Below are positions 1,786-19,900 of a stretch of 64,000 bases of DNA, piece after piece. The notes beneath the pieces were generated by a model. That model had not been told where the DNA came from. It did no database searches and worked only from the letters and a program-made list of their open reading frames with translations. The position numbers and the translations under genes are program-made. This DNA comes from Bursaphelenchus xylophilus (taxonomy: Eukaryota; Nematoda; Chromadorea; Rhabditida; Aphelenchoididae): the NCBI GenBank assembly GCA_904066235.2, contig CAJFCV020000001.1:9672001-9736000 (forward strand), read 5' to 3'. How positions within the stretch are numbered: the stretch's first letter is position 1; the number at the start of each line of letters is the position of its first letter.

Positions 1786-1817
1786 GTTAATAATGAAGCA
1801 GTAAGGCCTAATGTTCC

Positions 1818-1826: not shown

Positions 1827-1829
1827 TGT

Positions 1830-2291: not shown

Positions 2292-2320
2292 ATCTAGTGT
2301 CCAAATAAGTCAAAACATAC

Positions 2321-2330
2321 GTATTTATAC
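2321..2330 (-). promoter_or_regulatory. TATA box of the small virion-protein gene
   Basis: The minus strand reads GTATAAATAC, with its first T 38 nt before the ATG at 2291. It is one of the shared TATA elements of this transposon. Confidence 0.6.
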
Positions 2331-2466
2331 TTTTATCTGCTTGCACCTCAACTGTAAGATCTATGACAAAACCAGAATCAAAAGTCTAGTGATTACAAAA
2401 ATTTTTTATTGATGATTAACATTTTGTTTTGGACACAACAATATTTTTTTAAAAACCCACAATGTT

Positions 2467-2864
2467 TTATTCGTTGATATCGATCTCCTCAATGACCTTG
2501 CTACGACATTGACAACATTTGTTCACACGGACCCCAATTAATCCTGAGCAAATGAGGATTAGAAGCTAAAATCGGTATAAAATGATATATTGAATTTGAT
2601 CTTACAGTGAAGAAGAAAGCAACTATTCCAAGGATTAAGCTAGCCAAGGGCCAGAATTTGATGGAGAAGTTCAAGAAACAATTTTCATCGAGCGTCTTTC
2701 CAACATTATAATTAGAATCCAAGCATATAAGGGGTTCCAGATACCTTAAAAAGGACATTTTAAAAAATCATTAATGCAAAAAATTACCCAAAAGGACGAT
2801 AACAGTCAAAGTTGTTGGGACACGTACAATTGGTCCTCAAGAAATCTTGAATTCTCAGAGACAT
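2467..2864 (-). CDS. Cysteine-rich single-pass membrane protein of the Polinton, three exons
   Basis: Exons 2788..2864, 2606..2744 and 2467..2565 join in frame across introns of 43 and 40 nt with canonical GTAA donors and TTTTAAG/TTTTAG acceptors, giving 104 residues. The N-terminal part has several cysteines (NCTCPNNFDC, ICLDS, ENCFLN). A long hydrophobic segment follows (WPLASLILGIVAFFF and LLILICSGLIGV, about residues 58-83). The tail is short and Cys-rich (KCCQCRSK) and acidic at the end. The second intron lies inside the membrane segment. The gene is divergent from the ATPase, with 74 nt between the ATGs. It resembles the truncated membrane gene at the left edge in layout. It could be an envelope or inner-membrane component. 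No database family is recognised. Confidence 0.65.
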
Positions 2865-2898
2865 TTTGAAGAAACGAGCGTTAGACGGAGCAGAAAAA

Positions 2899-2907
2899 GT
2901 ATTTAAG
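2899..2907 (+). promoter_or_regulatory. TATA-like element between the divergent membrane gene and ATPase gene
   Basis: The sequence GTATTTAAG places its first T 39 nt before the ATPase ATG at 2939. On the minus strand it reads CTTAAATAC, about 42 nt before the ATG at 2864. It is a weaker version of the TATA box shared by the element. Confidence 0.4.
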
Positions 2908-2938
2908 ACAGAAAAATTTTTGTATTTCGGGCTAAACA

Positions 2939-3568
2939 ATGGCTTTCTCTGCTACGGAGTTGAAACTTCACCTACCATCTGGTCTTTTATTAGGAGGTTC
3001 TTCAGGCAGCGGAAAGACGTCCTTAATGCTCCAAATTATAGAAAATGCGCGTAAAATTTTTGATCCCCCGCCAAAGGATGTGGTTTATTGTTATGGAGAG
3101 TTTGGAGAACATGTTACACATCTAGCAAAACAGGGAATTAAAGTTGTTTCAGGACTCCCGGATGATGAGCTAATAAAAAATTCAAAAAAACCTTTGCTCC
3201 TTGTGTTGGACGACCTGATTACATCGATAGACCCTCAGTACCTCACAGAGCTTTACACAAAGAAGGCGCATCATCAAAACTTGGGTGTGATTACATTGAG
3301 TCAATCAATTTTCGAACCAAAACTCCGTGTTCCACGCATAAATTCCCAATATATCATTTTAATGAGAGCTCCGAACGCTGAACTTCAAGTACGAACACTA
3401 GGCTCACAAATTTTCCCCGGTAAAAAGGGATTTATGGAAGCATATCGTGATGCAACAAAGGAACAATTCGGCTATCTTTTAATCGATCTACATCCAAAGA
3501 CACCTGTTGATTTGAGACTACGTACAAACATTTTTTCGACAGACTCCATGGTGGTGTACAAAGTATAA
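2939..3568 (+). CDS. ATP: Packaging ATPase (A32/FtsK-HerA-like)
   Basis: The 209-residue protein has a clear Walker A loop (GGSSGSGKTS, residues 19-28) and Walker B (PLLLVLDDL, about 85-93). A sensor-like stretch (NLGVITLSQSIF) follows at about 115-126. Length and motif order fit the genome-packaging ATPases of Polintons, virophages and NCLDV A32 proteins. It should drive DNA into the procapsid. The gene is intronless. Its last codons are GTA TAA, and this TAA is part of the TATA box of the next gene (ATG at 3600). Confidence 0.88.
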   Translation: MAFSATELKLHLPSGLLLGGSSGSGKTSLMLQIIENARKIFDPPPKDVVYCYGEFGEHVTHLAKQGIKVVSGLPDDELIKNSKKPLLLVLDDLITSIDPQYLTELYTKKAHHQNLGVITLSQSIFEPKLRVPRINSQYIILMRAPNAELQVRTLGSQIFPGKKGFMEAYRDATKEQFGYLLIDLHPKTPVDLRLRTNIFSTDSMVVYKV

Positions 3569-3572
3569 ATAG
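3561..3572 (+). promoter_or_regulatory. TATA box overlapping the ATPase stop codon
   Basis: The sequence AAGTATAAATAG has its TATA start at 3564, exactly 36 nt before the ATG at 3600. The ATPase stop codon TAA (3566..3568) lies inside the box. Confidence 0.65.
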
Positions 3573-3599
3573 CAAAGAGAACAACCAAAAATCTAGTTT

Positions 3600-3926
3600 A
3601 TGAAGCTTATTCAAAAGCATGTCTTGTTTCTAAAAAAATTGGCGTCGTTCAAGAGTCCTGAAAGTCGAAAATTGTTTTTAAGTTCTTGCTCTCCAGAACA
3701 AGTCCAAGCAATTGTGGAGATCTGTTATAATCTTGTTCAAGGGAACATCCATTTAACTCCCCACCAAAGGAAAAAGTTGTTGCCATACGCTACCTTTATT
3801 CGCGAATTGAGTCGAAAAAGGTCTACCGCCTCGGGGCTTAAACATCTTCAGAAAGGAGCCGGTCTTCCATTTGCTGCCTTAATTATTCCTGCACTACTTG
3901 AAGCGTCGAGATTATTCCTAAAATGA
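3600..3926 (+). CDS. Small conserved-type Polinton protein with basic centre and hydrophobic C-terminus
   Basis: The protein has 108 residues: a helical N-terminal part (KLFLSSCSPEQVQAIVEICY), a basic centre (LTPHQRKKLLPYATFIRELS) and a Gly/Ala-rich hydrophobic end (QKGAGLPFAALIIPALLEAS). Short proteins of this type, with an 'LQKGAG' patch followed by a hydrophobic tail, are usual next to the ATPase and protease in Polintons and adintoviruses. They are thought to be minor virion components, but the function is not established. The TATA box lies 36 nt upstream. Its stop overlaps the next start in ATGA (3923..3926), which suggests that translation of the next gene is coupled. Confidence 0.65.
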   Translation: MKLIQKHVLFLKKLASFKSPESRKLFLSSCSPEQVQAIVEICYNLVQGNIHLTPHQRKKLLPYATFIRELSRKRSTASGLKHLQKGAGLPFAALIIPALLEASRLFLK

Positions 3927-4855
3927 AAAAATTTTTCCTAGTGCCAGAGGATTTTTACAACAATATTCTAAACACAACAACCTCTGAAGATTTTTCTCAA
4001 TCAAATGTCAACAAGACCTTGCATCAAAAAGGCAATGTGGGCACAAAGTATTTGAAATATAACCAACAAATGCCTGATTATCTTCGCAGAAAAAGAGAGA
4101 TGGATAATAAACCTGTTAAGGTTACTTTTGAAGATGGATCGACAGGGGCCAAAACGGGAAAATCAATCTCAAAAGTAGATGATGATGGAGCATACGAGGA
4201 ACTGTTTGCCAAAATTTATAAGGAAGTTCAGAGAACTGCTGGGAAAACTCCGAGGGTTAAAATAAAACGTCGATTTGTCCCAAAACATTCTGAGAACCGG
4301 GAAGAAGAACATGAGCCCAATTCAGAACAAATCCCCGACCTCGAATCAGAACAATCCCCTGACCCCGAAAACGAAGAAGGCCATGAATTTTTTACACCTG
4401 TCAGCCGTAGAACCCCAAAAAATACGACTCCAAAAAGTGAACGCCAACCCTTTACGGGTTGGAAAGCCCTTCCTCCAATCACTCCTTCCAAAGCCTTAGA
4501 AATTGCAAATTCTTTAAAAGGGAAACTCCGACGGGCCCCAGATACGTTTGGGATATCAGAAAAGGGATTCTTAAAAGATAAAAAAGGAAAAGCAACGACT
4601 TTTAATGCTGAAGCTCTTCTCAAACAGTGGGCCAAGAATCCTGTTGTTGGTGCTGACACCGTTCCCATCGATTTTCTAAATAAAATGTACAAGAATGAAG
4701 GTACAAAGGATATGATTCATCAACTTATGAGCGGACGGACAAAGAGGGAGAGAAAGCAAGTAGCCCGAGGAGTTTTATTGAAAAGAAGACACTACAGATT
4801 CAAGGTTCTTTCGTGGAAGTATAAAAGCACACCGAAAGTTTTGAAAAGGCATTAA
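3923..4855 (+). CDS. Basic Polinton structural-type protein of unknown function
   Basis: The 310-residue protein starts at the ATG inside the ATGA overlap with the preceding gene. It has no TATA box at the usual distance, so it is probably read from the same mRNA by reinitiation. The middle (about residues 120-160) is acidic and proline-rich, with repeated short motifs such as EQIPDLE and EQSPDPE, and is probably disordered. The C-terminal third is folded-looking (DTFGISEKGFLKDKKGK, VPIDFLNKMYKNEGTKDM) and ends in a very basic tail (RTKRERKQVARGVLLKRR). Proteins of this layout occur next to the protease in other Polintons. Binding to viral DNA or cleavage by the element's protease are plausible, but I see no decisive motif. 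Confidence 0.65.
   Translation: MKKFFLVPEDFYNNILNTTTSEDFSQSNVNKTLHQKGNVGTKYLKYNQQMPDYLRRKREMDNKPVKVTFEDGSTGAKTGKSISKVDDDGAYEELFAKIYKEVQRTAGKTPRVKIKRRFVPKHSENREEEHEPNSEQIPDLESEQSPDPENEEGHEFFTPVSRRTPKNTTPKSERQPFTGWKALPPITPSKALEIANSLKGKLRRAPDTFGISEKGFLKDKKGKATTFNAEALLKQWAKNPVVGADTVPIDFLNKMYKNEGTKDMIHQLMSGRTKRERKQVARGVLLKRRHYRFKVLSWKYKSTPKVLKRH
4817..4828 (+). promoter_or_regulatory. TATA box of the protease gene
   Basis: The sequence AAGTATAAAAGC starts its TATA at 4820, exactly 36 nt before the ATG at 4856. It lies inside the coding end of the preceding gene. Confidence 0.65.
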
Positions 4856-5416
4856 ATGGATGTTTCAGTTCCTGAACTTCCCGACTCTTGCAATCGTTAC
4901 AACGAACTCATTTTTTGTGCTGTAAGCATAATTTACACTATTGTTTTGTTTGTATATTTTATTGTGCACGGACTTATAAATGGACGAAAACGAAATCCGA
5001 AGAATAATCAAGCTGACGCCCTCGCTAGCTTCGAGCTTCTTAGACGTGCTTTCGATAGACCAAGTCAGTCTTCCCCCAAGTACCCGTTTAGTGTCATATA
5101 CAATCTCGATAAGAGCTATGAGCCAGGTTCACATTGGGTCGCTTTGTACGGTGATTCTCAAAAAAGAGTGTTCTATTTCGACAGTTTTGGAGATCCGCCA
5201 CCACACGAAATTACAAGTAAATTTCCAAATACAAATTACTGGCAAAAGCCTGTCCAATCCTTGTTTTCATCAGCCTGCGGGCATTACTGTATTGCATATT
5301 TGATCCTCAAAAATAGAGGTTTTTCGGATACATCAATTTATGGTACACTCTCCCATATTAGTGAGAAACAACTGAGGAATGTGATTAGACGCCTCGAGGG
5401 AAAATGGGGAGTATAA
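4856..5416 (+). CDS. PRO: Adenovirus-type cysteine protease with an N-terminal membrane segment
   Basis: The 186-residue protein carries the adenain catalytic set in order: His93 (GSHWVALY), Asp109 (FYFDSFG), Gln134 (KPVQSLFSS) and Cys141 (SACGHYCIAYL). It should cut capsid precursor proteins during virion maturation. Unusually, residues 18-40 form a strongly hydrophobic helix followed by a basic stretch (GRKRNPKN). No in-frame ATG lies after this segment, so the membrane anchor is part of the protein unless translation starts elsewhere. The start directly follows the stop of the preceding gene. The last codons GTA TAA form part of the next TATA box. Confidence 0.85.
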   Translation: MDVSVPELPDSCNRYNELIFCAVSIIYTIVLFVYFIVHGLINGRKRNPKNNQADALASFELLRRAFDRPSQSSPKYPFSVIYNLDKSYEPGSHWVALYGDSQKRVFYFDSFGDPPPHEITSKFPNTNYWQKPVQSLFSSACGHYCIAYLILKNRGFSDTSIYGTLSHISEKQLRNVIRRLEGKWGV

Positions 5417-5420
5417 AAGT
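5411..5420 (+). promoter_or_regulatory. TATA box overlapping the protease stop codon
   Basis: The sequence GTATAAAAGT starts its TATA at 5412, exactly 36 nt before the ATG at 5448. The protease stop TAA (5414..5416) lies within it. Confidence 0.65.
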
Positions 5421-5447
5421 GATAGTTCTGGTTAGAAAAGACATTTA

Positions 5448-5718
5448 ATGTCTAAAAAAAAAACGTCATGTCTTCTTCTGAGGAGGGTGGTTCGTCTTTT
5501 ATTGGTATCCCCACTGATCTGGGTCAGAAAACGTAAGTATCTTTTAAAACTTTTTGTTTATTTCAAGTACTACCGTGTATCCGACGCCCTCGGGGCCATT
5601 CCTCTCAGTCCAAATAGTCCCAAACGAATCTTGGGCCATGTATGTATTTTACAATAATGGATCTTCACGTCATTTGATAACAATAATTTATTTACAAGAA
5701 GAAATGTATGATTTATAA
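5448..5718 (+). CDS. Small spliced Polinton protein, start disturbed by a ten-A run
   Basis: Exon 1 ends at 5532 (AAAAC|GTAAGT), the intron is 5533..5567 (35 nt) and exon 2 is 5568..5718. Read from the ATG at 5468 this gives 71 residues: a Ser/Glu-rich start (MSSSEEGGSS), a middle of Thr/Pro (TTTVYPTPSGPF) and a beta-rich end. The TATA spacing of 36 nt points instead to the ATG at 5448, which is in another frame. The two ATGs are separated by ten A residues. One extra A would put them in one frame, so an assembly error, a real frameshift or slippage is possible. The product is not recognised. Confidence 0.5.
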
Positions 5719-5748
5719 TATTATATAAAAAAAGTAATAAATAAATAA

Positions 5749-8700
5749 TCATTGTACATAACCGAATGGAAGAATAGTGACGTCGTCATTAGCAATATAT
5801 CCCTTATCACAAACACCTTGATAAACTTTTTGTTTATCATTTGTAGTGAAAACTCCAACGTTCTTAATGGCGCGAATCTCGTCGTAGACAGCTGTTAAAG
5901 ATTCTTGATATCCATCCAAAATAACTCGGTCAACCAGACCAGAAAAGGAGTCATAGTTAATGATCGAACATGTTTTTCCGTTTAAACTTATTCCGCGGAG
6001 TTTCAGATCATATTCCAACTCCCCAGTCACAACGTCCCTATATTTTAAGGCATATTGCTTGGCACCAAGTCCAAGAAACTCGAGGATATCCTTCCCTTTC
6101 TTCTCCAACTCCATATCTCCAAGGTAGTCTCCAGTCTTCAGAGGATACTCACCCGAAGCCTTATCAAAGGTGAAGATCAGACTATCTGAAAGATTGTTGT
6201 TGTTTTGCATGCACACCTACCTGTATCATAATACAGAATTTTTTCGCCTTTACTCTCCACCTGTTCAAAGAACGAGTAGAGATAGGTCCGGGCTTGGGCC
6301 GTGATCCATGTAGGGATCAACAGATTTGAAAACTCCAGCGGGGTTGTGAATTCTTCAGAGGTCTTGAAGCTAATGTATATTTTATCATCCTCCACCAAAT
6401 CAACACTTTTGATCACATTGGTGGAGTTGTTGAGTATCTTGTAGAACTCGGTGGCAGTGGAACATACCACAGTCTAAAAATCAGATTACAAAAAATGTGC
6501 TCATTCGTTACCTTGGGAAGATCCGTTCTCATACTCAATTTTCCCCATAAACTATTGAGATACAACTTGGAGATTGTTCGGAGAGCAGGATTTTTAGACC
6601 ATTTGCCCTCGTCAATTTCAAATCCATATCTTCGCTTAATTTCCTCCTTGAATTGTTGATTTTTTGCCTCGTCATCATAAGGTTTTCCCGAAGCCTCAAG
6701 CTTGGTTTTTAAAAACCTATATACATAGGGTTTGAATAGGGCGTCCGACATTTCATTAAATTTCAAAATTTCGAATATTTTCTTGACTTTGTATCCCTTC
6801 CTGAGGGCATTTTTAAGTTCAACTGATGTTGTAGTTGTCAAAAAGGACCTCTCTTCCTCTCCATGTTCGCATACCAAGTTTTTGTTGTAGCTGGCTCCTT
6901 GATTCTCCTGAGCACATGAATAACATAGAGGGTAGATTAACTTTTTGTTACAGGTAATCGGGAGGACAGGAAGCGCGAGATTCTGAGGAGGAAGAACAAC
7001 AACTTTATACAACCCATCATGCTCAATGTCTGCTTCAGATTCCCAATTCACATCATAATTTTGAATGTATAAGGGTGTAGGTATCCCTATGGGCATTGCA
7101 TAGGTCGCCATGATATAAGGGTAAAGACTCTGAATGTCGGTGTATCCTATTCCTTTCCTTTCATTAGCGTTAAATTTGAGACATTGCGTAGCAGTTCGTC
7201 CACCATGGAAGGCATCTCGGAGTCTGATAGAACCCGCCGAAAAGAATCTCTGCTCAAAATAAGCAGACATTTCGTCGTCCTCTTGTAACATTTTCCTAAT
7301 CTCACATTCCTTATAAACAAGGACTTCAAATCCCAAATCTTCGAGAGCTTTTACTCTTTTTTCTGTTTTTAGTAACCCTTCTTTTACAGATATTCCAGAG
7401 GGCAAACGGTCTCCGAGATCTTTACAACAATCTTTGCACCCGTGATAATAGCAACCATTTAGCTCCAATGCCAAAGGTTTCTCATTCTGCCTTTCCAAGA
7501 ACCCATCTATCGAGATTTTGTGGACCTTTCCGTCGATGACAATCTCAACTCTATAAAAATTTTTTATTATTTTTGTTTTTGTTCTAACCTTTTTTCCCCA
7601 TTATCCCTAAATTGGAGATCTTTCATGTCCTTTTTGTCTCTCAGCCATCTGAAGAAAAGTAATGCCACTTTTGATTGTTGTATAAAATCTCCAAACCCAA
7701 TAGTAGGAGTTCTGATGACGGTCCTTTCCTCCAGGTCTAACATTCGCCAGATTCTCAGACATGAAGAAGCAAGGGTTGGACAGTAGTATAATACATCGTC
7801 CGTAGGACAATGCTCTTGAATCATACTTCTAAACTTTACTAAGGCATGCAGCAGGATTCTGGTGTCTTGAATTCCATAATCGTACAACTGTTGTTTGAAG
7901 TTGAAAGGTTTATCCCGATTTTCTTCGTAAAAGTCAAGCAACTCTTGTCTTTTGTTCGCATTCAAACTGTCTGGACAATAATATTGAATATCCGGATGAT
8001 GAGGGAGGTCAGCTTGATAGTGAGCAGGAGTGTTAAAGAGATGGGGGAATGTCCCCTTGGAATCAACTTCAAGACCCAAAGCCTTTGGCATCGATCCGAG
8101 AGGCATTTGGAGGTAATTAAAAGAGTCTGTAAATTTGACCTCTGTGAAAGCTCCAGCAGTTCCAGCGACATTAATTGTGTAATATTTGGCCCCTGTCAAG
8201 ATCATATCGATCTTGGAGATGGCTGAAAAAAATATTTGAATTTGTTGCAATGACCTACTCTTGTCTTTGTTTATTTCTTTCATGAGCAAATGACAATCGA
8301 ATTTGCCTCCGAAATGTGCTATTGCGAGGACTGGTATCTTTTTTGCGCAACTTTTTAGATACTCCCATACGTCTTTGACAACATTTTCGGAGTCACCATG
8401 AGGAATACTAAACGTCTTTAGATGCTCTCCACATTTTTCACATGGAGTCTCTTCGTCTCTCCATTTACCGTTTGCCATACAAGTTGTACAGGCCTTGTGA
8501 ATTGATGCGAAATTTACAGAGTGTTGACTTCTGTTCGAGTTATCGTTCAAAGGAGTGGTGGTAGTTTCAAAGTCAAAGGCACACAAGTTGTAGTTGACAG
8601 GTTTTTTAGGCACAGGTATGGGGTTGACGTAACACTCACTCCCGACTTCGTGAAAGCCTCGGCATGACACGCAAAAACTTAATCCACATAAATGCCCATT

Positions 8701-10893
8701 CTTTTTTGAATATGCCTGATCACATTTGTCACATTTTTTGTAATAAGAGCAAATGTTTTTCTTCAGATGGTGTTCATAGCAATCCTTGTTTAAAAACTTT
8801 TTTGTACATGCGGCGCACTTCTTTTCAAAGCCATCATCCTTACAAGGAAAGTCGTTTCCTATACGACAACACTTGGTGCATTTTTTCTGGCATCTAGCTG
8901 TATGATCGATTGATTCTCTCATCAATTTCCGACAACTGAAACATAAATTGGAGAAAGATCTGACTCCGAAGAAAGCAGTGGGACTCCATATGGAGTCGTA
9001 GTGATTGTCGTGGTAATAAAGCATAATTGGAGTTTTTACATCCAAAATCTCATCCTTCTCCAGTTTCGGGTAACTCCATCCGTGCTCAAAAGATCTCCGA
9101 TCAAAAACTATAATTTTATGTGGAGCGGCTTCTGGGTATTTTTGGTCCATGAAAGCTTCCCAGAGGCCAACCGTGAACTCGATGCTTTCCTTTCCTGTTA
9201 AACTTGCAGCCTTAAAATGTTTGTATGCTTCTTTTAGTTCAGCACATTCTGTTGGTTTTGTAAATTTTCGAGCCTTGTACAATTTTCGTTCAGATTTTTT
9301 ATGGCCCGGAAGATCCTTGGTAGTTGCAAGCCTAGAGATGTTTATGGATACAGGAAGACAATCATTCTTCTGAGTGTTAACATGGAAAATGCCTGTACTT
9401 GTCTCCAAAAAGGATCTAGTTGTCTGTCGTGTCGGGGGAGCGCCACCGATTCTGCCATATAGAACTGTTATGTTGAGTACAAAGGGTTTCCCCAACAAGC
9501 TTGGAGTTTTGGATGACTGTGCAATTTTGAATAATTTTGTGTAAAGATGTTTAGGATCGAAAACATTTCTTTTGGAGAAATGATTTAGAGGTCTCGTTAA
9601 GTTATCGGACGATACTCTCACACCTACATACATGGCCCTTTCTGATCCTCCTCTTTCAACTAGAAATTAAATTTGATTTTTTTTTAAAGTGTTTACCTTC
9701 TCTGAGGCACTCGTTGACTGATTGTTCTACAAGCTGATTGAAACGTTTTTCAAAATCACTCATGTTTTCACTAATGTGTATATGGTACTTTTGTTCTCTT
9801 GAGTAGCATTTAAATCTCTCTGACGTTTTAACTCGAGAGGCTCCGACACGGAAGAATTGTATTCTATAATAAAATTTTTTGACTTTTTTATACGATTATT
9901 GCACTTACCCCCGACCTTTTTGAGGGAGAGGTCTGAAAAAATCGTCAAATTCAGGGAGGGTATCTGTGCCTCCTAAAAACCTTGCCATGTCAAAGCACGG
10001 ATCAGAAAAATTTTCCTCGTCAAGATCATCTAGAGAAATATTGGTTTCTGAGAATTCCTTGTAAAAGTCGAGATCTTCCAAAAGTTTTTGCATCATCATT
10101 TCGCGGGGATTATGTGAAGAACTCGATGGGATGTTTGAGAGATCATCACTAAAAAATGAATCAGAGAAAAAAACAAGAGATACCTTTCGAGTAGCTGCAT
10201 GTACTGCATGAGTTCTGCGGGCCCTAAGACCTTAAAGTCGGGCCTGAGAATGTCTTCAAGGGACAATGTATTATTTTGTTCTTGGGTTGTCATTTTTATT
10301 GATTCTTCATGATTGGAGTTTGTCTGCTCTTCCATAATGGTTTCCGAGCATTGGCGAAAATTGGGAGCCGATCTATGATAATCGACGGCCGGGTCTCTTA
10401 TATTCGATAAGTCCCTCAGGGGTGTAAGACGCCTTCTCTTGGAAGGTGGATGATTGGAGTTTGTCTGCTCTTCCATAATGGTTTCCGAGCATTGGCGAAA
10501 ATTGGGAGCCGATCTATGATAATCGACGGCCGGGTCTCTTATATTCGATAAGTCCCTCAGGGGTGTAAGACGCCTTCTCTTGGAAGGTGGATGATTGGAG
10601 TTTGTCTGCTCTTCCATAATGGTTTCCGAGCATTGGCGAAAATTGGGAGCCGATCTATGATAATCGACGGCCGGGTCTCTTATATTCGATAAGTCCCTCA
10701 GGGGTGTAAGACGCCTTCTCTTGGAAGGTGGATGATTGGAGTTTGTCTGCTCTTCCATAATGGTTTCCGAGCATTGGCGAAAATTGGGAGCCGATCTATG
10801 ATAATCGACGGCCGGGTCTCTTATATTCGATAAGTCCCTCAGGGGTGTAAGACGCCTTCTCTTGGAAGGTGGTTGTTCTATTTCGTTAGTCAT
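5749..10893 (-). CDS. pPolB: Protein-primed DNA polymerase B with a repeat-bearing N-terminus, eight exons
   Basis: Predicted exons are 10184..10893, 9909..10148, 9697..9863, 8259..9659, 7589..8222, 6512..7550, 6221..6473 and 5749..6185, all in frame, about 1626 residues. The intron 8223..8258 is 36 nt and open, so it may be retained. Exonuclease motifs are CAFDFETTTTP, HFGGKFDCHLL and YGIQDTRIL. Polymerase motifs are YTDIQSLYPY (A), KLYLNSLWGK (B) and YYDTDSLIF (C). Motif C is split by intron 6186..6220. A Cys/His-rich zinc-binding region lies before the exonuclease part. Exon 1 encodes four 47-residue repeats. The first three exons could instead be a separate gene: an ATG at 9763 gives a polymerase of about 1276 residues. 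The ATG at 10893 follows TTTTTTAG, a likely trans-splice site. Confidence 0.85.
10311..10872 (-). repeat. Four identical 141-bp tandem repeats in the first polymerase exon
   Basis: Units begin at 10311, 10452, 10593 and 10734, and I see no base difference between them except at the outer edge. Each encodes 47 residues with a basic patch (PPSKRRRL, nuclear-signal-like), then TPLRDLSNI and ETIMEEQ. Perfect identity over four units suggests very recent expansion or active homogenisation. Copy number could also be affected by assembly collapse. Confidence 0.95.
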
Positions 10894-11041
10894 CTAAAAA
10901 ATTTTTTTCTTTATTAATTGAATTAAGAAAGGTACGATAATAACACGCCAACAGTTCACGAAAAATATATGATAATAAGAGGGAATCAAAACATTGTAAA
11001 TAGGTGTAAGGATAAGGGGAACATTTAACGATAAAAGGGGG

Positions 11042-11834
11042 TCAGTCGGATTTTTCTTCCTCGAAGACTTTTTCAATCTGTTTCTGTAGTTTACGAAGTG
11101 TATTCTTGCTCACATCTGTTGCCCTGTAAATGTCCATTAGTGTGTATTCTTCTCTGCACATGTAGTATAAAGTTGCAGCGATAGTTGAAAGAAGAGGATT
11201 TCTGAACATTTTTTATTTTTTAGATTGATATATGTTACCCCGTCAGCACACTTTTATTTTGAACTGTATGAACCATTTTTACTAGTTGAGCATGTCTTTT
11301 ATAGGAGAGCCCTAGATAAGCGCAAAATCTGCTTGCATATTCCTCGACTCCAATCGGTTTGTTTGCATTGGCAATATTTCCGGGGATCTGTTTGAAACAT
11401 TTATAGATCTTCTTTATGTTAACCGCCGACAATTCTGAGATTTCTAAAAAGGGAAAAATGAAACGCTTGGGTCATTGATAACCTTTGAAACTCCGTGGAA
11501 CCCCATTTTTACGACATGTTATGTACAAGCAAGTGGCTAAAACATGTTTGTCACTAGTGTTTTTTACATAGTCTTTGATTCTGTCAAATAGGATTGAAAC
11601 ATCCTTTTCAATGCTTGAGGGCAGATGTCCTTTACTGGTCATCTCTTGTAATATTTTTGTATTCTCTTCAGACATTTTTGATGTAGGTGTTGTGGTATAA
11701 AAAGGCACATCATTTAAGACGTCAAAGATCCGTTCGCCGACAACGACGCCACACTCTGGGCAAATCAGATCTCCACATCTAAAATCTTCTATCAACTCCG
11801 CCTCTGTATGAAAGGGGCACGTCAAACGCTCCAT
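11042..11834 (-). CDS. TFIIB-like transcription initiation factor carried by the Polinton, three exons
   Basis: Exons 11483..11834, 11239..11443 and 11042..11201 join in frame across 39- and 37-nt introns, giving 238 residues. The N-terminus is a TFIIB zinc ribbon: Cys6, His9, Cys25 and Cys28, with CGDLICPECGVVVGERIFD. The 15-residue gap between His9 and Cys25 equals that of the eukaryotic factor. Two cyclin-like repeats follow: one around VLATCLYITCRKNGVPRSF and one around NPLLSTIAATLYYMCREE with DVSKNTLRKLQKQI. It is shorter than cellular TFIIB (about 316 residues). It should bridge TBP and RNA polymerase II at promoters. A splice acceptor 5 nt before the ATG suggests trans-splicing. The gene is divergent from the minor capsid gene, with 42 bp between the start codons. 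Confidence 0.85.
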
Positions 11835-11839
11835 GTCAC

Positions 11840-11847
11840 TATAAAAA
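11840..11847 (+). promoter_or_regulatory. TATA box of the minor capsid gene
   Basis: TATAAAAA starts at 11840, 37 nt before the ATG at 11877 and 28 nt before an in-frame ATG at 11868. Because the other genes keep 36-40 nt, the box favours the ATG at 11877. On the opposite strand the same bases form the acceptor (TTTTTATAG) of the TFIIB-like gene. Confidence 0.6.
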
Positions 11848-11876
11848 CAAAACGGTTAGTGATTTGTATGTTAGAT

Positions 11877-13370
11877 ATGCGTTCGTCATTTTTTATTGTG
11901 CTTCCCAGCAACGATCCTAGTAACACCTTTGGGAAAAATACCCCTGCTGATTTCAAAATCGTGTTGCCTAAACCCTTGACATTTGACGCCCCCTATTTAT
12001 GTGGTTTACAGAGCATTGTCTATCCTCATTCATGGGCTTCTATCGGGACCTTGGATGGGCAATATATCGATCTTACAACTGCTTACGCAATCTTGAGAAT
12101 ACACATCCCTAAAGGGAGTTTTAATACAATTGAGAGTTTGGTGACATATTTGAATTCGGTGGTTCAAGAAGAGCTTGAGAAGGGAGAGGGGCGTCGTAAA
12201 AGAAATGCTCCGGAAGAGCCAAAGGTTTTAAAAAAGGGTAAAAAGATGGATGTCGCATTAAAGAAGTCTGTGAAGACTGATGAGGGAAATCCAATCCCTT
12301 TGACAAAAGCCGCGGTACAAAATGTTTCTCTTCCAAACGTTTCTAATACTAATATTGCTGATGTTGGTACTAGAAATAATCCGGGGGGTATTCGAAATAC
12401 TACTAGAGATACTGCTAAAAGTACTACATTTCCTCATGGTGCTGCTCAACCTAGCCCTTTGCCTCCTTCTAATCCGCCTGTTTTACAACCGTCTACTCTT
12501 AGCAATCCAATTACTACTAGCATAGCTACTCCATCTACAACAACACTAACAGGGGCACAACATACCGCTCCCTCTGCATCCTCAAAGGCCTCGTCATCAC
12601 ACCTTTCCAATAATATACAAAAAGGCAATTTATCTCTCGAAAATGAAAAAAAGGCCCCGAATAACAACAACTCCCAATCTGCCAAGAACAAAAGCGGCGC
12701 GACCTCCTTCTCCCCGGTTTCGACCGACCATCTGCCTACGCACAATCCTGCGATTGGTTTTATGGATGTTGAGTATCCCAGAATGTCACGCCCCCTTGCC
12801 CTGGTTGGCACGAGACGTATTGAGACTGAACCTTTGAAGGTCCCCGTCTATGAATTGAACCGCCCTCATAAAACGGTGAAAGAGCCAATCAAAGCAATGT
12901 ATAACCTGAGACCTTTAAGATCTTCCGATTTCGCAATATTATACGACAAGAAAATTCAGCGTGTGAAAACACATGTTAATCATGAAGTAGTGGGGAAGAT
13001 TGAGTTCTCACCCCAATTAAAGTACACTCTAGGGTTTTCGGATTATGGGGAAATTGTAAACGAAACTGTCGCTCCATTCTCTCCTGATCTCAGTGGTGGC
13101 ATCAAGAACCTAGCCGTATACGTTGACGATTTAGTTGAACAGGTTATTGTCGGCAGTTTTCAAACACCTATGCTTCGTATGGTTACAGTAAAAGGCAAAC
13201 CGGGGGATGTTGTGGAACAGATTTACGATCAACCGTTAATGATACCTGTTAGAGCAAGGGAGATCTCTGTATTACATGTTCAAATTAGAACTCTAGATGG
13301 ACGTTTATGCCCTTTTGATTATGGCATTACTTGTTTAACTTTATGTTTCAAACCTCTGGCGGTTTTTTAA
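11877..13370 (+). CDS. mCP: Minor capsid (penton-like) protein of the Polinton
   Basis: From the chosen ATG the protein has 497 residues. The N-terminus (SSFFIVLPSNDPSNTFGKNT, then DFKIVLPKPL and CGLQSIVYPHSW) is the typical start of Polinton minor capsid proteins. The C-terminal region is beta-rich and ends in DYGITCLTLCFKPLAVF. Between them, about residues 100-300 form a low-complexity Ser/Thr/Pro/Asn-rich insert, which makes this protein longer than usual. The upstream in-frame ATG at 11868 is an alternative start. AATAAA signals shared with the convergent 111-residue gene follow the stop. It should form the capsid vertices. Confidence 0.82.
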   Translation: MRSSFFIVLPSNDPSNTFGKNTPADFKIVLPKPLTFDAPYLCGLQSIVYPHSWASIGTLDGQYIDLTTAYAILRIHIPKGSFNTIESLVTYLNSVVQEELEKGEGRRKRNAPEEPKVLKKGKKMDVALKKSVKTDEGNPIPLTKAAVQNVSLPNVSNTNIADVGTRNNPGGIRNTTRDTAKSTTFPHGAAQPSPLPPSNPPVLQPSTLSNPITTSIATPSTTTLTGAQHTAPSASSKASSSHLSNNIQKGNLSLENEKKAPNNNNSQSAKNKSGATSFSPVSTDHLPTHNPAIGFMDVEYPRMSRPLALVGTRRIETEPLKVPVYELNRPHKTVKEPIKAMYNLRPLRSSDFAILYDKKIQRVKTHVNHEVVGKIEFSPQLKYTLGFSDYGEIVNETVAPFSPDLSGGIKNLAVYVDDLVEQVIVGSFQTPMLRMVTVKGKPGDVVEQIYDQPLMIPVRAREISVLHVQIRTLDGRLCPFDYGITCLTLCFKPLAVF

Positions 13371-13372
13371 AT

Positions 13373-13743
13373 TTATTGTTTAATAAATAATAATTGCAAG
13401 TTAAAGGGAGTATTCGTGAAAGTTCTCGTACAGCTGTAAGCATGACAAAAGGCTCTAATAACATCTGAAGGCTTGAAATCTTTTAATGGCAATGCCTCCA
13501 CCTTAAACTCATCGAGATCCATCTCCCCAGAAATGTGCATAGTAATGTAATTGAAACCTATAACAATATGATAATTCAAGTTAGTCTCCAACCTTTTGAG
13601 TATCTGTCTACAAGTTCTTTTACAAGCCTTTCAATATTTCGAACAGTTGCATTCCGGGGTTTCTTTGTCTCGTACGAAGCAGAATATGAAAAATAGTTAC
13701 CGATTGAACTTTCTGATGTTGAGGTACAGTTAAACAACTCCAT
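13373..13743 (-). CDS. Small spliced Polinton protein of unknown function
   Basis: Exons 13593..13743 and 13373..13557 join in frame across a 35-nt intron, giving 111 residues. The first half is Ser/Tyr-rich (GNYFSYSASYETKKP) with a short amphipathic helix (NIERLVKELVDRYSK). The second half looks folded (YITMHISGEMDLDEF, PSDVIRAFCHAYSC). No family is recognised. It lies between the minor capsid gene (convergent, 2 bp apart) and the integrase gene (divergent). It has the same TATATAAA promoter and spacing (38-40 nt) as the major capsid gene, so it may be expressed with virion genes. Confidence 0.6.
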
Positions 13744-13760
13744 GATAATATTTTTTCTAC

Positions 13761-13785
13761 TATAAAAAAGAAACATTTATATACT
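13761..13785. promoter_or_regulatory. Divergent TATA boxes between the 111-residue gene and the integrase
   Basis: On the plus strand TATAAAAAAG starts at 13761, exactly 36 nt before the integrase ATG at 13797. On the minus strand GTATATAAATG (13774..13784) lies 38-40 nt before the ATG at 13743. The two promoters face away from each other. Confidence 0.6.
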
Positions 13786-13796
13786 GTGCACAGATC

Positions 13797-14828
13797 ATGA
13801 GCATTTTAAAAAGCTTTCGTGATCTAGACGATCCCTCTGCATACACAGGGCCTTCTCGTTTGGCAAAAACAAAGAAGCTAAAATACGAAGATGTTCGGCG
13901 GATCTTGGCACGTGATTTTTCGTATAGTCTCCATAAACCGAGACGTCGAAGATTCAATCGTTTGAAGACTATCCCCTCAGGGTTCATGACGGATGTGCAA
14001 ATGGATTTGGCGGACTTTCAGGCTCTTTCAAAATACAACAAGGGCTACAAATATTGTTTATTGGGGGTTGACGTAATGTCGCGCAGGTTCTTTGCTTGTC
14101 CTGTTCTCTCCAAAAAGTCTTCGGATATGCTCAAAGCATTCGAATGTATGTTCAGAAAAATGCCGCAAATCCCCCAGGTGATTTTTACGGATAAGGGCAA
14201 AGAGTTTGTTGCCAAAGATGTCAAAAACTTTTTGGATTCAAAAAACTTGGAGCTTCGCCATGGAGAAAACGCGGAGATCAAAGCAGCAGTTGCAGAGAGA
14301 GGAATTAGAACTTTAAAATCTCGTTTATACAAATACTTTTCCGCACAAAACACTTTGAATTGGATTGGTGTGCTGGACAAGTTTATTAACGCCATCAACA
14401 ATACTGTGTGTAGGAGCACAGGCTTGAAACCTAAGGATATTAATAGCTCAAACTGGTTCGAAATTTGGAAAAAAATTTATCAATCTGATTCCCCAAAAGC
14501 CAAAGAGCCCAAGTTCAAGGTGGGGGATTGGGTCAGGATTTCACGGCAGGCCGGGGACTTTGATAAGGGCTACTGGACTACCTTTACAGATGAAATTTTC
14601 AAGATTACAAAAATTAATAGAACTAACCCCATTACTTTTGAACTTGTTGACTCGGAAGGCGAACCGATTGAGGGCCGATTTTACACCGAAGAACTTTCGC
14701 TGACTTCTGAAGATACTGAATATCGAATCGAAAAGATTCTCAAAACACGATTGCGTAAGGGCATTAAAGAAGGGTTTGTCAAATGGATTGGATTTCCCTC
14801 ATCAAAAAATTCTTGGGTTCAGCTATAA
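13797..14828 (+). CDS. INT: Retrovirus-like integrase with C-terminal chromodomain
   Basis: The 343-residue protein has an rve core with catalytic residues near Asp70 (VQMDLADF), Asp132 (VIFTDKGKEF) and Glu167 (AVAERGIRTLK). The last two are 35 positions apart, as in DD35E enzymes. An SH3-like segment follows (KFKVGDWVRISR, about residues 240-251). The C-terminus is a chromodomain-like motif (YRIEKILKT...FVKWIGFPSSKNSW). This is the usual Polinton c-integrase, which cuts the element ends and joins them to host DNA. The chromodomain may guide insertion to certain chromatin. All catalytic residues are present. Confidence 0.9.
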   Translation: MSILKSFRDLDDPSAYTGPSRLAKTKKLKYEDVRRILARDFSYSLHKPRRRRFNRLKTIPSGFMTDVQMDLADFQALSKYNKGYKYCLLGVDVMSRRFFACPVLSKKSSDMLKAFECMFRKMPQIPQVIFTDKGKEFVAKDVKNFLDSKNLELRHGENAEIKAAVAERGIRTLKSRLYKYFSAQNTLNWIGVLDKFINAINNTVCRSTGLKPKDINSSNWFEIWKKIYQSDSPKAKEPKFKVGDWVRISRQAGDFDKGYWTTFTDEIFKITKINRTNPITFELVDSEGEPIEGRFYTEELSLTSEDTEYRIEKILKTRLRKGIKEGFVKWIGFPSSKNSWVQL

Positions 14829-14896
14829 TTCCAAATTTACAAAAGTATGTTTATTTATAGCACGATTCCTTAAAAAAATATATATATATATGACAA

Positions 14897-15737
14897 TTAA
14901 AGTTTTCTCTGCTTCAGAGGCATTTTCGCTCTTTTCGGTGTGACATTTTCCTTGTTTTTCTCATCGTAGTCCGGGAGTTTATTTACGTAATGGGGAAAGA
15001 CGACTTCAGTCATCTTCCATTCGCCATTTATACATTGGCAGTTCAATTGACGAGAGAAATTTTTGATTCCCAGAACCGTGATCATAGAATTCGGAGTTAT
15101 TTTGTGATGCACATCGTCGGCATTATGAGGAAATTTCTCCACATTTTTAAGATCATAAACATGTCCTTCTCGTAGAGGCGAGAACTTTGAGACGTTATTA
15201 TGTGCATTTACATATATTACAATCGGTCTTTTGAACATGTCAGCTCCATTTATTACCATATCCGGACCTCCGTCAGCAGGTCTGTTGTTCTTCCAAATTC
15301 TCAGAATGATAACCGTCTCCGTATTCCTAAAAATCTTGTATTATACAAATCGTAACTTACTTATCTTCTTGACGTGCTTTTTGGCACATTTCATAAAACT
15401 CGCTTCTCTTTGTGGTTCCTCCAAGATGTTTTACAACAGTAGTGTCATCAACAAAAATTACCTTTTCGGCCAAATTTTTCTGGACCTCTGTATTATCCAG
15501 CTTCAGAAGTGTGCCCGGATATATTGCCTCACCTCCCATATTAAAATCAGGGAACGGCCATTCTAAAGTGATGTGATTGTTAAAGCAATCAGTTGCACAA
15601 ATTGTCCTGGACTCCTCGCTGTTGAAGGTCTTGAGGACCTGGACGACTACAGTTTTGGATGTTGTCGTATCCATCATTGGGTTGATCAGAAAAGAGGCGC
15701 GCGTCCTCTCTTCCTCCGTCATAATAGGCGCAGCCAT
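14897..15737 (-). CDS. Spliced Polinton protein, possibly nucleic-acid binding, unknown function
   Basis: Exons 15361..15737 and 14897..15326 join in frame across a 34-nt intron, giving 268 residues. I start at ATG 15737 because the open frame further upstream has only a TTG. The protein has mixed beta-type segments ([58 protein letters not shown]). Its lysine-rich C-terminus ([17 protein letters not shown]) holds a KEN-like triplet and a TPKR nuclear-type signal. The string of strands suggests OB-fold single-stranded DNA binding proteins, but no specific motif proves it. It has no TATA box. A 32-bp palindrome lies just upstream. Confidence 0.6.
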
Positions 15738-15750
15738 ATCGCGAGGAGAC

Positions 15751-15782
15751 AAAATAAGCAAATGAGGTCATTTGCTTATTTT
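15751..15782. repeat. 32-bp near-perfect palindrome between divergent Polinton genes
   Basis: AAAATAAGCAAATGA is followed by GG and its exact reverse complement, so the arms are 15 bp with a 2-bp centre. The flanks (CGAGG...CCTCG) add partial pairing. It lies 14 bp from the ATG of the minus-strand gene (15737) and 44 bp from the plus-strand gene (15827). It could be a dimeric regulator site or a cruciform. Confidence 0.8.
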
Positions 15783-15826
15783 CGCCTCGTGGAGTTTAGC
15801 CCCAATCTTTTTCTAGCTCCGCCCTC

Positions 15827-16191
15827 ATGATTTCGATTACCCTTAACGAATATATCCGGAAGACATACGCCGTGTCCATTGATGGGGTCGATATCAATAC
15901 TTTGAAGTTAATAAATTTTAGTGTAAGTTTTTAATATCATATATTTTATGTTTTTTTTTTTAGAATTTTTACATGAAATTCCGTGGGCGTAAGATTTGTC
16001 GTCTGAAACCTGTTCAAAGCAAATGCGGTGAGAAGCTGTGGTTCTTTTCGCTGTACGATAAAGATGATGGATGTGAGAGCGACACTAGATGTCTCTTTGA
16101 CGGAGATGAAATTCAAATTTATTTAACACCTGTTACCAAACGTCACACTGAAGTCCCTCAATCTGATCTTATTTTTTATACAAATATTTAA
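15827..16191 (+). CDS. Small spliced Polinton protein of unknown function
   Basis: Exons 15827..15922 and 15964..16191 join in frame across a 41-nt intron with GTAAGT donor and a long T-tract acceptor, giving 107 residues. It contains basic and cysteine residues (FRGRKICRLKPVQSKCGEK), an acidic stretch (YDKDDGCESDTRC) and a beta-type end (GDEIQIYLTP). No known family is recognised. The ATG follows TTTTTCTAG by ten bases, a likely trans-splice acceptor. It is the last gene before the terminal repeat region and is divergent from the 268-residue gene. Confidence 0.55.
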
Positions 16192-16390
16192 AAGATTTTT
16201 TTTTTGAATAAACGAATAAAAGTTATTGGATTCTTAATCCTTTTGAAAAGGGTAAAAATTATTTCATCATCATTGAGTCGAAAAGTTTATTGAAGGGTCA
16301 TCAACCTTTATTGATGGACCAGACTTACTCTTGATCCTTCCGCTTTTTCCGGAAAAAAATCACAGACATAAATCATAAACTCTTTAACCT

Positions 16391-16490
16391 ACCGCAACCT
16401 CTAGGTTGCGCAACATTCATAACATCTCGGTTGCGGAACACCCCGCAACCTCTTGCCCTCCCGCAACCTCTAGGTTGCGCAACAACCCGC
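16391..16490. repeat. Palindromic CGCAACC/GGTTGCG modules near the Polinton end
   Basis: An 18-bp palindrome (CGCAACCTCTAGGTTGCG) occurs at 16393..16410 and 16462..16479. Half-copies lie between and after them (GGTTGCGG, CCGCAACC). The base composition differs sharply from the AT-rich genes. Such clustered sites could bind an element protein or form hairpins near the terminus. Confidence 0.85.
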
Positions 16491-16519
16491 AATCCTCCTC
16501 CTTTCCCCACTTTCTCACC

Positions 16520-16930
16520 CTTTTTCAATTTTTTACCGCAAAATTCCCTCACCTCTCTCCCCACTCTCCTCCAATCCCACACTCTCTCCCCTTTTTCATT
16601 TTTTACCACAATTTCATCGCGTCCTTTCAATTACGACACCCTCTCATCTTTTTTGAAATTTGACCGCAAAATTCCCCTGACCTCTCTCCCCACTCTCCTC
16701 CAATCCCACACTCTCTCATCTTTTTCATTTTTTACCACAATTTCATCGCGTCCTTTCAATTACGACACCCTCTCATCTTTTTTGAAATTTGACCGCAAAA
16801 TTCCCCTGACCTCTCTCCCCACTCTCCTCCAATCCCACACTCTCTCATCTTTACAGTACTACCATACCATAAAAATTCCCTCACCTCTCTCCCCACTCTC
16901 CTCCAATCCCACACTCTCTCATTTACGGCA
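16520..16930. repeat. 129-bp minisatellite with a C-rich core
   Basis: The C-rich core (CCTCTCTCCCCACTCTCCTCC and following bases) begins at about 16552, 16681, 16810 and 16884. The first three are 129 bp apart and the last is shorter (74 bp). A TTTTTACCACAATTTCATCG segment separates the cores. I take it as part of the right terminal region of the element. The 16192..16390 gap before it shows only AT-rich sequence. Confidence 0.85.
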
Positions 16931-19900
16931 CCCCGCGCCGGCTCCTCCCCCCTTTTCCAGTGGATGCAAAATTTAGTGCCAGAAACTACCTCTTATTACT
17001 ACTAGGCTGCATCCCTTTTATTCCGTCGCTTCACACCTGACTTCAAATGACACAGGAAAAAATAAAAAAGTTTCCACTTTGTTAGAGACGACTACAACTT
17101 CAACGCAAACAAATTAGGATGTAGTATGATTATAACAACAAAAACTATCAAAAAAATTCTAAAACGATACCGCCGGGAGCGAAGAAGCCGTTGCAAAATA
17201 CTAATATTCCCAAGGTAAATACCCCGCTTCGCCATGAACACATGGCTATGCCAGTCGCACATGGTTATGTATATATGTTGCACCATGCTCCCTTTAGCCC
17301 CACGCTTTGTTTTTTCCCACAGACGTACATTACTTCCGCATAAACAGGCATTTAAATTTTCACTGGGTCAAAAAAACTTCTTCTTCACACAAAAAGTGTG
17401 TTTGCCCGAGGACGTGTTGCGTCATGTCATGTAAAAGGCAGAAATCATCCAGTTTGGAGGGGGACAGGGAAACATGAGAACCAGGAATCGGTCATTCAAG
17501 AGCCTCAGGGGATACGGGGATATTCGGAAAAGCGACTTGACAATATGCATAATGTCCTCACGATTTGGTTACATCGGAGGAAGTGTAAATTGGAAAAAGC
17601 AAAATTTTAGAGTATTATGTTTTGACTGCCCAAAAAATGAGATATTTTCGCTAAAAAACTTGAATCATACGAACAACTCGCTTTCGAAATTAATTTGGCC
17701 GCTTCCGAACGGATTTGATTACTGAATCAGCCCGTTTATTGCATTATCACAATTTCCTTGCAACGCTCACGTACCGGTTGTTTACGCGTCACCCACTCAA
17801 TTCGGCTCTCGGATTCCCAAGATGCCCGCGAATCTCCCCCGGGGACCGGCTCCGGCGCATACAAAACGTTCTTAAGCAATTTTAACCCAATTTAGAGACC
17901 ACAAACAGACGAACCGGGTGAGGTCCGGACGATAGCAGCGGATTCCACCCTGAGCCGAAGCGTTTAAAACAAGCGAAAAGCTCAGAAACTGTAGAAAAAC
18001 GAAACGATAGGATGCCCCCGGGGGACAGCGGAAGAAAAGAAAGCAAATTGGCAAAGAAAAGGGGAAGATGAACGTTCCCACGGGATGCCATCGGCCCCAC
18101 TTCAACTCCAACGTTTCTGAATCCTTAAACGGTATGGATCTTTGACAGAAAATGGAAATTTGGAAGCAAAGAGGAAAACAAAGAGTGGGAAGAAAAACAA
18201 AAATAAAGCAAAATGAGTTTTAAAGTAAGACCCAATATGGTGACAAAGCCCAAAAGTTTTTAAAGAAAACTTGGCACCAAGCCTAAAAATTGACTATTAA
18301 TAGGCGCCGTTCTAGTTTCGCAAGCCCAATAAATTATTCTCCAACACTCTAAAATTTAAAAGGCCGGGCAAAATTTCAAAGAAAAAGAGAAAAACAAAGT
18401 CGAATCCGGCCAAATTCTCCCCGCTGTTATTCAAAAGATAGGGGTTCTGCTTGCGCAAGTCCTTGACTCAACCGACCGTTCTATGAACTTAGACTGCATT
18501 TACCGCCATTTCTAGCCTCCAGGGAGTACAGAAATGCGTAAGGGTTTCGAATCATCATGAGTCGCTCAAAGAACATCGAGCTCGCTATTAGCCAAATTTG
18601 ATAGTCGTGAGGAGGGCGGTTTAAACAAATTACATGATGTTTCAGTGTTTCAGAGACGGCACATGCTCCTCGTAAATCAAATTTCAACCCTGATTTCCTA
18701 ATGCTACAGAATGGGTAACAACACACTCTCAGGATTTGATGCAAAGATAAAGAAATTGCCAGAATGTGAGCTCAATTTTGACGCAAGACGCCTCAAGTCT
18801 CCTACACGTGCAAGATTGCCCTTTACCAATTCCCCTTATATCCTGACACTCGATACGCTAAACTTGTATTGTTCACGTAATCCAAAGAACGCCGGCAATT
18901 TGCACAGAGCGCAGAGACCGAGACCAAGATAACCGCCAATGTGGTGATGACGATAAACAGAAGGGCCCATGACATCTCCGAAAAGCTGCAAATGTCAGAC
19001 GAACAGTCATGTCCAATACTTCAAATGTGAGCGATGTTTTTTGGAGATGAACGTTTGGAGATGGAGACAATGATAACATTTTGTATATCTTTGACTTCCT
19101 TGTTTTGCAATAGTAAGAATGGAGTTATTGATGGCTTAAGACAACTGTGTTCAGGGCATGTTTTTAGCTAAAACTCCTCAAAATCGCATTTTTTAGAACC
19201 GTGTCGAAAACAACGAATTTTTCATCCTATCTCTTTGTCACTTGATGTCTGACCCAGCTCTTCTTAAACGTCTTTAAATTCTTTGAAATTCCGGGAATTT
19301 TTGACTAGTCCCTAATTAGCCTCGGGTCGTTTTCCTGCTATTTGTTACTCAAAGATTGTTAGTGTCAGTCCGTGGGCGCTTCCAAATAATTTCCAGTTTT
19401 TTCGCGTGTTTTGAACTTCCAGCATCTGATATCCGACCTTCCTCATTAAAAGACCTAAATCTACGCAGTACAAAGAATACTTTTTTAAGATTGCTCTTTG
19501 AGAAAATAGAAATAGAGGATTTAATTGTATGGTGGGATCTTTTGTACTTTGACGTGTACAAATAACCGGGTATGCAAGGGCGTAATTAATTCAAATAACT
19601 GATGATTGATCCACTGTTTTGGAATTTAAACTTTGGAAGATTAAATTTTATTCAAACATTTTTGGATCGCATTTTACAGAAACTCAACGAAGACACAAAG
19701 ATTATTGTAATAAAGATTAATAGTCGACGGAACTTTCAAATTTACACTTTTTGTATGAAAGTTCAAAAATAAAGATGGACCAAAAATGAAGAGGACAGGA
19801 GAAATGTAACCCTCAAAACTCCCACACTTACCGTCGCCCATTGATGAAGATCTTGACATGATGCAAGATTTTGATAACCATGCTTACAGGCCTCCAGCCA

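Follow-up and report, generated by a model that had tools for sequence, protein, structure and literature searches.

A Polinton in the genome of the nematode Bursaphelenchus xylophilus carries a gene for a TFIIB-like transcription factor. It is well supported that this factor derives from an animal gene, most likely a nematode one, and that the Polinton family in which it sits is otherwise ordinary. The window, by which we mean the whole stretch of 64,000 nucleotides that was analysed, holds the gene on its minus strand at 11042–11834, where three exons are predicted to encode, after conceptual splicing, a protein of 238 residues. A search of the open literature, with a main nematode Polinton survey outside its reach, found no description of a Polinton or Maverick with TFIIB.

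The Polinton and its genes

The whole element is 19,831 bp long. Its left end lies 2.8 kb before the window (position 7173 of locus L009) and its right end is at 17003, so that positions 1–17003 of the window belong to it, as delimited by terminal repeats and a 6-bp target duplication, aggctg. The inverted repeats are about 1 kb long, with AGTAGTAATAAG as the outermost bases, and the right one occupies 16201–17003. They also hold a 129-bp tandem repeat (16531–16852 in the window, 7257–7873 in L009). On the minus strand some 1.3 kb away from the left terminus (L009 5246–5836) there is a host ORF that, judged by eye, is globin-like.

Several of the genes are recognisable from profiles. The PolB coding blocks (6413–9666, minus strand) match Pfam DNA_pol_B_2 twice over the cut-off (5.3e-15 and 2.2e-26), and the presence of this profile in both blocks identifies a predicted family B polymerase of the protein-primed type. 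An integrase (13797–14828, plus strand) has an rve match over the cut-off (8.7e-11) and a probable chromodomain (Chromo, 3.6e-4, below cut-off). Three further plus-strand genes are conserved in the Polinton families B–D described below: a probable adenovirus-type protease (4856–5416; Peptidase_C5 at 0.0041, below cut-off), a probable P-loop ATPase (2939–3568; a weak AAA match below cut-off) and a 108-aa ORF (3600–3926; no Pfam match). The ORF at 469–1785 on the minus strand, also conserved in families B–D, is a likely candidate for the major capsid protein, in Polintons a double jelly-roll protein; it gave no Pfam, PHROG or PDB match and its structure model was unusable, and it is named as a candidate on its conservation in other Polinton families. 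Head to head with the TFIIB-like gene lies a 500-aa ORF (11868–13370, plus strand) that is conserved in families A–D, has no Pfam or PHROG match, and is perhaps a minor capsid protein. In the nine further ORFs that were scanned, no Pfam family was matched except in the ORF between TFIIB and PolB (10096–10893, minus strand). This ORF contains four 47-aa repeats and may, judged by eye, be a 5' exon of PolB; its UPF0227 match (1.4e-6, over cut-off) lies within the repeats, and no stretch passes alone. The underlying 141-bp repeat (10309–10872) has four units in the window copy and two or three in six other near-identical copies (L010, L011, L013–L015 and L043).

With animal Polintons or Mavericks the element thus shares the terminal repeats, the 6-bp duplication, PolB and the rve integrase, and it has a probable protease and a probable ATPase as well; what sets it apart is the additional TFIIB gene that lies between PolB and the 500-aa ORF. 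The first-pass annotation had described a TFIIB gene inside a Polinton, between polymerase and capsid genes. The terminal repeats, the 6-bp duplication, PolB and the rve integrase bear out the first part of this description, and the gene does lie on the polymerase side; for a capsid gene as the other neighbour the searches gave no support, as the 500-aa ORF found there is conserved in families B–D and matches nothing in Pfam or PHROGs.

A TFIIB-like protein

The gene starts with an ATG at 11834 and ends with the stop codon TGA at 11044–11042. Exon 1 (11483–11834), with its limits set by alignment and GT/AG, encodes the zinc ribbon and the first half of cyclin repeat 1, and is followed by intron 1 (11444–11482; 39 nt, GT..AG, phase 1, with one in-frame TGA). 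Exon 2 (11239–11443), placed by alignment, encodes the end of cyclin repeat 1 and the first half of cyclin repeat 2. After intron 2 (11202–11238; 37 nt, GT..AG, phase 2), exon 3 (11042–11201), placed by alignment with the TFIIB of the host, supplies the remainder of cyclin repeat 2 and the stop codon.

The zinc ligands follow the pattern C6-x2-H9, 15 residues, C25-x2-C28, with all four intact, just as the first-pass annotation had read them. Exon 1 matches both Pfam Zn_Ribbon_TF (2.5e-8) and the Pfam TFIIB repeat (1.4e-5) over the cut-offs, and a profile search therefore finds TFIIB similarity for the ribbon and the first cyclin repeat. The second cyclin-like repeat, which had also been claimed, is confirmed mainly by alignment, with profile matches that are weak and below cut-offs: exon 2 by itself matches no Pfam family and reaches NCBIfam TFIIB at positions 190–254 of 312 with 0.0012, far below the model cut-off, and exon 3 matches the Pfam TFIIB repeat at 0.042, below cut-off. 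Against PHROGs, a single match was obtained for exon 1 (0.0012), and the function of the matched family is unknown.

Comparisons with whole proteins are much clearer. Human TFIIB (PDB) matches the stretch of exon 1, intron 1 and exon 2 read through at 4.6e-23, and the sole query insertion in the core alignment is 13 residues, the length of intron 1. The spliced protein matches host TFIIB at 6e-38. In one joint comparison the values are 8e-38 for host TFIIB and 2.7e-12 for the pieces of host BRF1, the Pol III TFIIB-related factor, which shares the ribbon and two cyclin repeats with the element protein but is a far weaker match. On these sequence comparisons, chance is excluded as the source of the TFIIB similarity. 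An identity as BRF1 was considered as well, and is rejected on the pairwise values, though the first of the two trees described below places the element protein beside the long BRF1 branch.

A structure model was made for the read-through stretch, with the intron kept and exon 3 absent, and is of low confidence (pLDDT 63). With this model Foldseek found 13 structures at E <= 0.001, all of them chains of Pol II initiation complexes with TM-scores of about 0.3; two of the 13 (5iy6_M and 5iy7_M) come from PDB entries named TFIIB. When the read-through sequence was used as query against a protein database, none of 32 candidates matched at E <= 1e-3. Of the 252 candidates found with the spliced query, three matched at E <= 1, and the best of these is a tapeworm protein (1.8e-24); the spliced protein itself was not returned from the 5.8 billion proteins searched. 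In a search with a two-row profile, 7986 candidates were scored and 1922 of them matched. The best 120 of these 1922 all have TFIIB domains and are from animals wherever the organism is named, and no NCLDV names occur among them.

Like cellular TFIIB (from the host, C. elegans, Pan and the human PDB structure), the element protein has the zinc ribbon ligands and two cyclin repeats, and the two introns of its gene agree in position and phase with introns of host TFIIB. It differs in being encoded in a mobile element, in a shortened C-terminus, and in the absence of about 48 residues in the B-reader/B-linker region, a stretch that is retained in host TFIIB and in all 21 aligned database TFIIB proteins. 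Because this region is missing, the protein is classed as TFIIB-like and not as a full TFIIB; a TFIIB-like gene does lie at 11042–11834, as first annotated, and it is the word "complete" that has to be dropped. The B-reader acts in start-site selection near the active centre (PMC4361453).

The conservation of the remaining protein is uneven. Overall identity to host TFIIB is 28–34%, and by region it amounts to 23/41 in the ribbon, 31/92 in cyclin repeat 1 and 18/89 in cyclin repeat 2, so that conservation is highest where the protein grips Pol II, and divergence greatest where it contacts TBP and DNA. At the positions aligned to human V283, R286, G153 and R154, which we take to be residues that read the BRE, the element protein has N, R, N and T.

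Origin of the gene

The host TFIIB gene lies at G000:C5:4540108-4541358 and has four introns; its splicing as used here agrees letter for letter with the public Bursaphelenchus xylophilus protein, which ranked first in the two-row profile search. Intron 1 of the element gene has the position of host intron 2, in phase 1, after GVPRTFK/GVPRSFK. Intron 2 has the position of host intron 4, in phase 2, at the glycine before RSPIS/NPLLS. A match of both introns in position and phase is not expected by chance, and means that what was captured was an animal TFIIB gene in its genomic form, with introns. The TFIIB-like gene was thus most likely taken from a nematode chromosome, judging from an intron comparison that covers the host TFIIB gene.

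The trees by themselves decide nothing on origin. The first contained 39 rows (37 of the 123 fetched database proteins, plus the element protein and the BRF1 pieces) and placed the element protein beside BRF1, on a branch of 4.68 and outside all TFIIBs at 82/83. This placement counts against a nested nematode position, but it joins two long branches. For the second tree, with 33 rows, BRF1 and five other rows (P0066, P0072, P0075, P0077 and P0086) were removed, and the element protein grouped at 80/95, unstarred, with 20 nematode rows, leaving 12 others outside, on a branch of 10 and with the bootstrap unsettled. AU tests on this second tree rejected neither of the alternatives tested (p 0.507 and 0.427). 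A tree with nematode TFIIB and BRF, as the first-pass annotation had proposed, therefore gives an answer that changes with BRF1: beside it when it is included, with the nematodes once it is removed. The branch of the element protein is the second longest in the first tree and the longest in the second, which suggests that the capture is old or that the gene evolves fast.

A connection with NCLDV TFIIB, raised in the same annotation, finds no support, and both introns coincide with introns of the host TFIIB gene. Three surveys of IMG/VR contigs (9, 67 and 35 stretches) yielded no TFIIB relatives that tblastn confirmed, and a further survey gave two loci on contigs that are phage-like by their ORFs, as judged by eye.

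Copies and related Polinton families

The Polinton belongs to a family, here called A, of which seven copies are found on three contigs, in the same element context and with distinct flanks at the ends seen. Target duplications were confirmed at three copies (aggctg in the window, aatact and catatg), and one end was seen for the other four. All seven family-A PolB loci have the TFIIB gene. Across the 871 nt of the TFIIB region that were compared, five copies, including that in the window, are identical, a sixth has a single change in intron 1, and the seventh has six changes, five of them in exons, together with a one-base insertion in intron 2 that is the sole indel among the seven. The coding sequence is therefore the same in six of seven copies. 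In two family-A copies (G000:C1:2751283-2751495 and G000:C5:1544817-1545029) the integrase match covers residues 1–69 only and has internal stops, and the TFIIB region is intact.

Between the window copy and the diverged copy at 3.53 Mb on contig C1, the TFIIB exons show four nonsynonymous changes and one synonymous change, as against 14 nonsynonymous and 23 synonymous in ten other pieces of the element pooled for the same two copies (three pieces of that comparison were unmatched, probably because the fetched stretch was too short). Changes in a ratio of 4:1 are too few to decide, and on these counts purifying selection on TFIIB does not show. The reading frame, the splice-site dinucleotides and the zinc ligands are intact despite 28% identity to host TFIIB.

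The other PolB loci of the genome were sorted by identity into families B (three loci), C (two) and D (three), with one short fragment in addition. Whole-genome searches with two profiles, the cyclin repeat at E <= 1e-3 and the ribbon at E <= 0.1, found TFIIB at none of the eight family B–D PolB loci; the matches were the seven family-A copies, host TFIIB, host BRF1, and two ribbon matches below cut-off that lie near no listed PolB locus. The gene content of families B, C and D was read at one locus each with a match threshold of 1e-4. Ten family-A genes are common to all three: PolB, the 500-aa ORF, the integrase, the protease, the ATPase, the capsid candidate and four small ORFs. At 1e-4 these three loci gave no match to TFIIB, to the repeat ORF or to the ORFs at 5448, 14897 and 15357, and TFIIB is therefore not the sole ORF particular to family A.

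The junction between PolB and the 500-aa ORF differs among the families. In family B, the start of PolB and the 500-aa ORF stand head to head about 50 nt apart. In family A, TFIIB and the repeat ORF occupy the junction, with 33 nt between the start codons of TFIIB and the 500-aa ORF. Other, unrelated-looking ORFs were seen by eye between PolB and the 500-aa ORF in families C and D (L046 at about 7800–8560, L047 at 7800–9000 and L055 at 1–860), and for this reason the junction may be a site for family-specific genes.

Two observations lie outside this set of families. Two more distant integrase relatives, 33–36% identical in the main match, occur outside the listed A–D loci (G000:C6:12233467-12234447 and G000:C4:3284279-3285261). 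There is also a lone 103-bp stretch that is 88% identical to TFIIB exon 1 (L017 1501–1603, which is G000:C5:2175556-2175658), in a locus of 3.1 kb that otherwise matches nothing of the element; the stretch may be an old remnant of this gene.

Promoters and start sites

Several genes of the element are preceded by a TATA box. The sequence TATAWA is found 28–42 nt before the ATG at 5 of 13 element gene starts, compared with 13 of 586 background ATGs, taken from both strands of positions 1–16300 of the window (binomial P 6e-6, an optimistic value since the range of 28–42 nt was chosen after inspecting the sequences). If TATTTAA is allowed, the PolB block omitted and the starts at 3600 and 5448 added, the count becomes 8/14 against 14/586; it is biased in that the start at 5448 was added because a TATA box precedes it, a bias of which 5/13 is free. 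The genes of virion type and the integrase have the box 28–40 nt before the ATG: 28 nt for the 500-aa ORF, 38–40 nt for the capsid candidate, 39 nt for the TATTTAA of the ATPase, and 36 nt for the integrase and the protease, as also for the 108-aa ORF. Four TATA boxes are exactly 36 nt before the ATG.

TFIIB, the repeat ORF (which starts at 10893) and four other genes have no TATA-type box at the tested distance. In the first two, a T-rich AG resembling a splice acceptor stands no more than 12 nt before the ATG, directly before it in the case of the repeat ORF; this is seen at 2 of 14 genes, against 20 of 586 in the background. Before TFIIB the acceptor-like site is TTTTTATAG (11839–11847, minus strand), which ends 4 nt before the ATG. 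On the plus strand the same nine bases, 11839–11847, are the TATA box of the 500-aa ORF, and since the acceptor-like site is that box reversed it is not independent evidence. TFIIB and the repeat ORF are on the same strand 148 nt apart, a spacing that, we assume, would suit a nematode operon. A spliced-leader-like RNA with GGTTTATTAACCCAAGTTTGAG is present in the host genome, which fits a nematode. The exact C. elegans spliced leader, in the form searched, is absent from it, and 48 SL1 matches there fall short of the gathering score.

TATA boxes also occur in the families without TFIIB. In families B–D, TATAWA lies at 28–42 nt in 8 of the 25 starts that could be judged (5 of 30 starts gave no ATG). 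Family C has TTATTTAAG instead of TATAWA before three genes, at a similar distance from the ATG, which suggests that the promoter boxes may be family specific; the three are homologues of the 500-aa ORF and the 108-aa ORF (both in L046) and of the integrase (L053). The idea that the TATA pattern is specific to the family that bears TFIIB was rejected, as families B–D have TATA boxes too. Since the corresponding genes of these families carry TATA or TTATTTAAG boxes although no TFIIB accompanies them, host TFIIB suffices there.

What the protein may do

The reading that we prefer, ahead of a decoy or a mere passenger, is that the TFIIB-like protein recruits host Pol II to the element's own TATA-box genes, and from the sequences we would give it a little less than an even chance. 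TFIIB and the ORF on the PolB side would be made early, by the initiation and trans-splicing machinery of the host. The well-kept TFIIB-like ribbon would hold Pol II, the diverged cyclin core would, with host TBP, favour the TATA class, and the TFIIB-like protein would in this way act as an early-to-late switch. A precedent speaks for such a mechanism. In African swine fever virus, as described in PMC10881513, TFIIB also has a shorter reader and linker and is thought to serve late genes. Several results speak against it: the missing B-reader, given its part in start-site choice (PMC4361453); the similar TATA boxes of families B–D, which have no TFIIB; the four nonsynonymous changes against one synonymous; and the spliced protein not being among the proteins searched. 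The longer history, in which a Polinton without a recognisable RNA polymerase captured TFIIB, shed the reader and linker, and now switches from trans-spliced TFIIB and replication genes to TATA-box virion genes by means of host Pol II, is tentative, and as a whole we would call it doubtful.

NCLDV TFIIB, for example that of African swine fever virus, resembles the Polinton protein by description, in being encoded by a virus or element and in its shortened reader and linker. Large DNA viruses with a TFIIB, African swine fever virus among them, possess an RNA polymerase of their own (PMC10881513), whereas none was found by Pfam among the scanned ORFs of the Polinton. Unlike NCLDV TFIIB, the Polinton gene retains host introns.

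It is unlikely, if still worth weighing, that the shortened protein is a decoy, one that binds Pol II and perhaps TBP but cannot open promoters, so that host transcription is damped in favour of the element. A best-kept ribbon beside a lost reader and linker would fit this, as would the fact that the lost stretch is kept by 21 of 21 aligned database TFIIBs and the function of the reader as given in PMC4361453. A pure ribbon decoy would, however, have no need of a cyclin core whose frame is open through the second repeat, and the viral TFIIB with a short reader and linker is thought, according to PMC10881513, to be active in transcription.

We rate just as low the chance that the gene is a passenger, taken from the host and now of little or no use. 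The ratio of changes between the two copies agrees with this, as do the three families that do without TFIIB, the failure to find the spliced protein among the proteins searched, and the very long branch in both trees. Drift alone would nevertheless hardly keep the frame, the splice dinucleotides and the four zinc ligands at 28% identity, and a count of five changes is small; the six of seven copies with the same coding sequence also speak against a passenger, though they are perhaps merely young.

That the gene was inherited from a giant virus, or from some other DNA virus with a TFIIB, is very improbable: TFIIB does serve as a near-universal marker of NCLDVs (PMC12638062), but the two introns agree with host introns in both position and phase, and the placement is with nematodes, weakly supported and among compared rows that were without NCLDV TFIIB. 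Nothing was found in favour of an artefact, in which a host gene or pseudogene lies beside the element or was mis-assembled into it, and seven separate insertions on three contigs, with the same element context, distinct flanks and three confirmed 6-bp duplications, make its probability negligible.

Significance

The matching introns document cleanly that a Polinton captured a nuclear gene, introns included. If recruitment of host Pol II by the TFIIB-like protein, the reading preferred here, is true, a 20-kb animal element with a TFIIB derivative that works on host Pol II would be a case of a small DNA virus taking over promoter choice without a polymerase.
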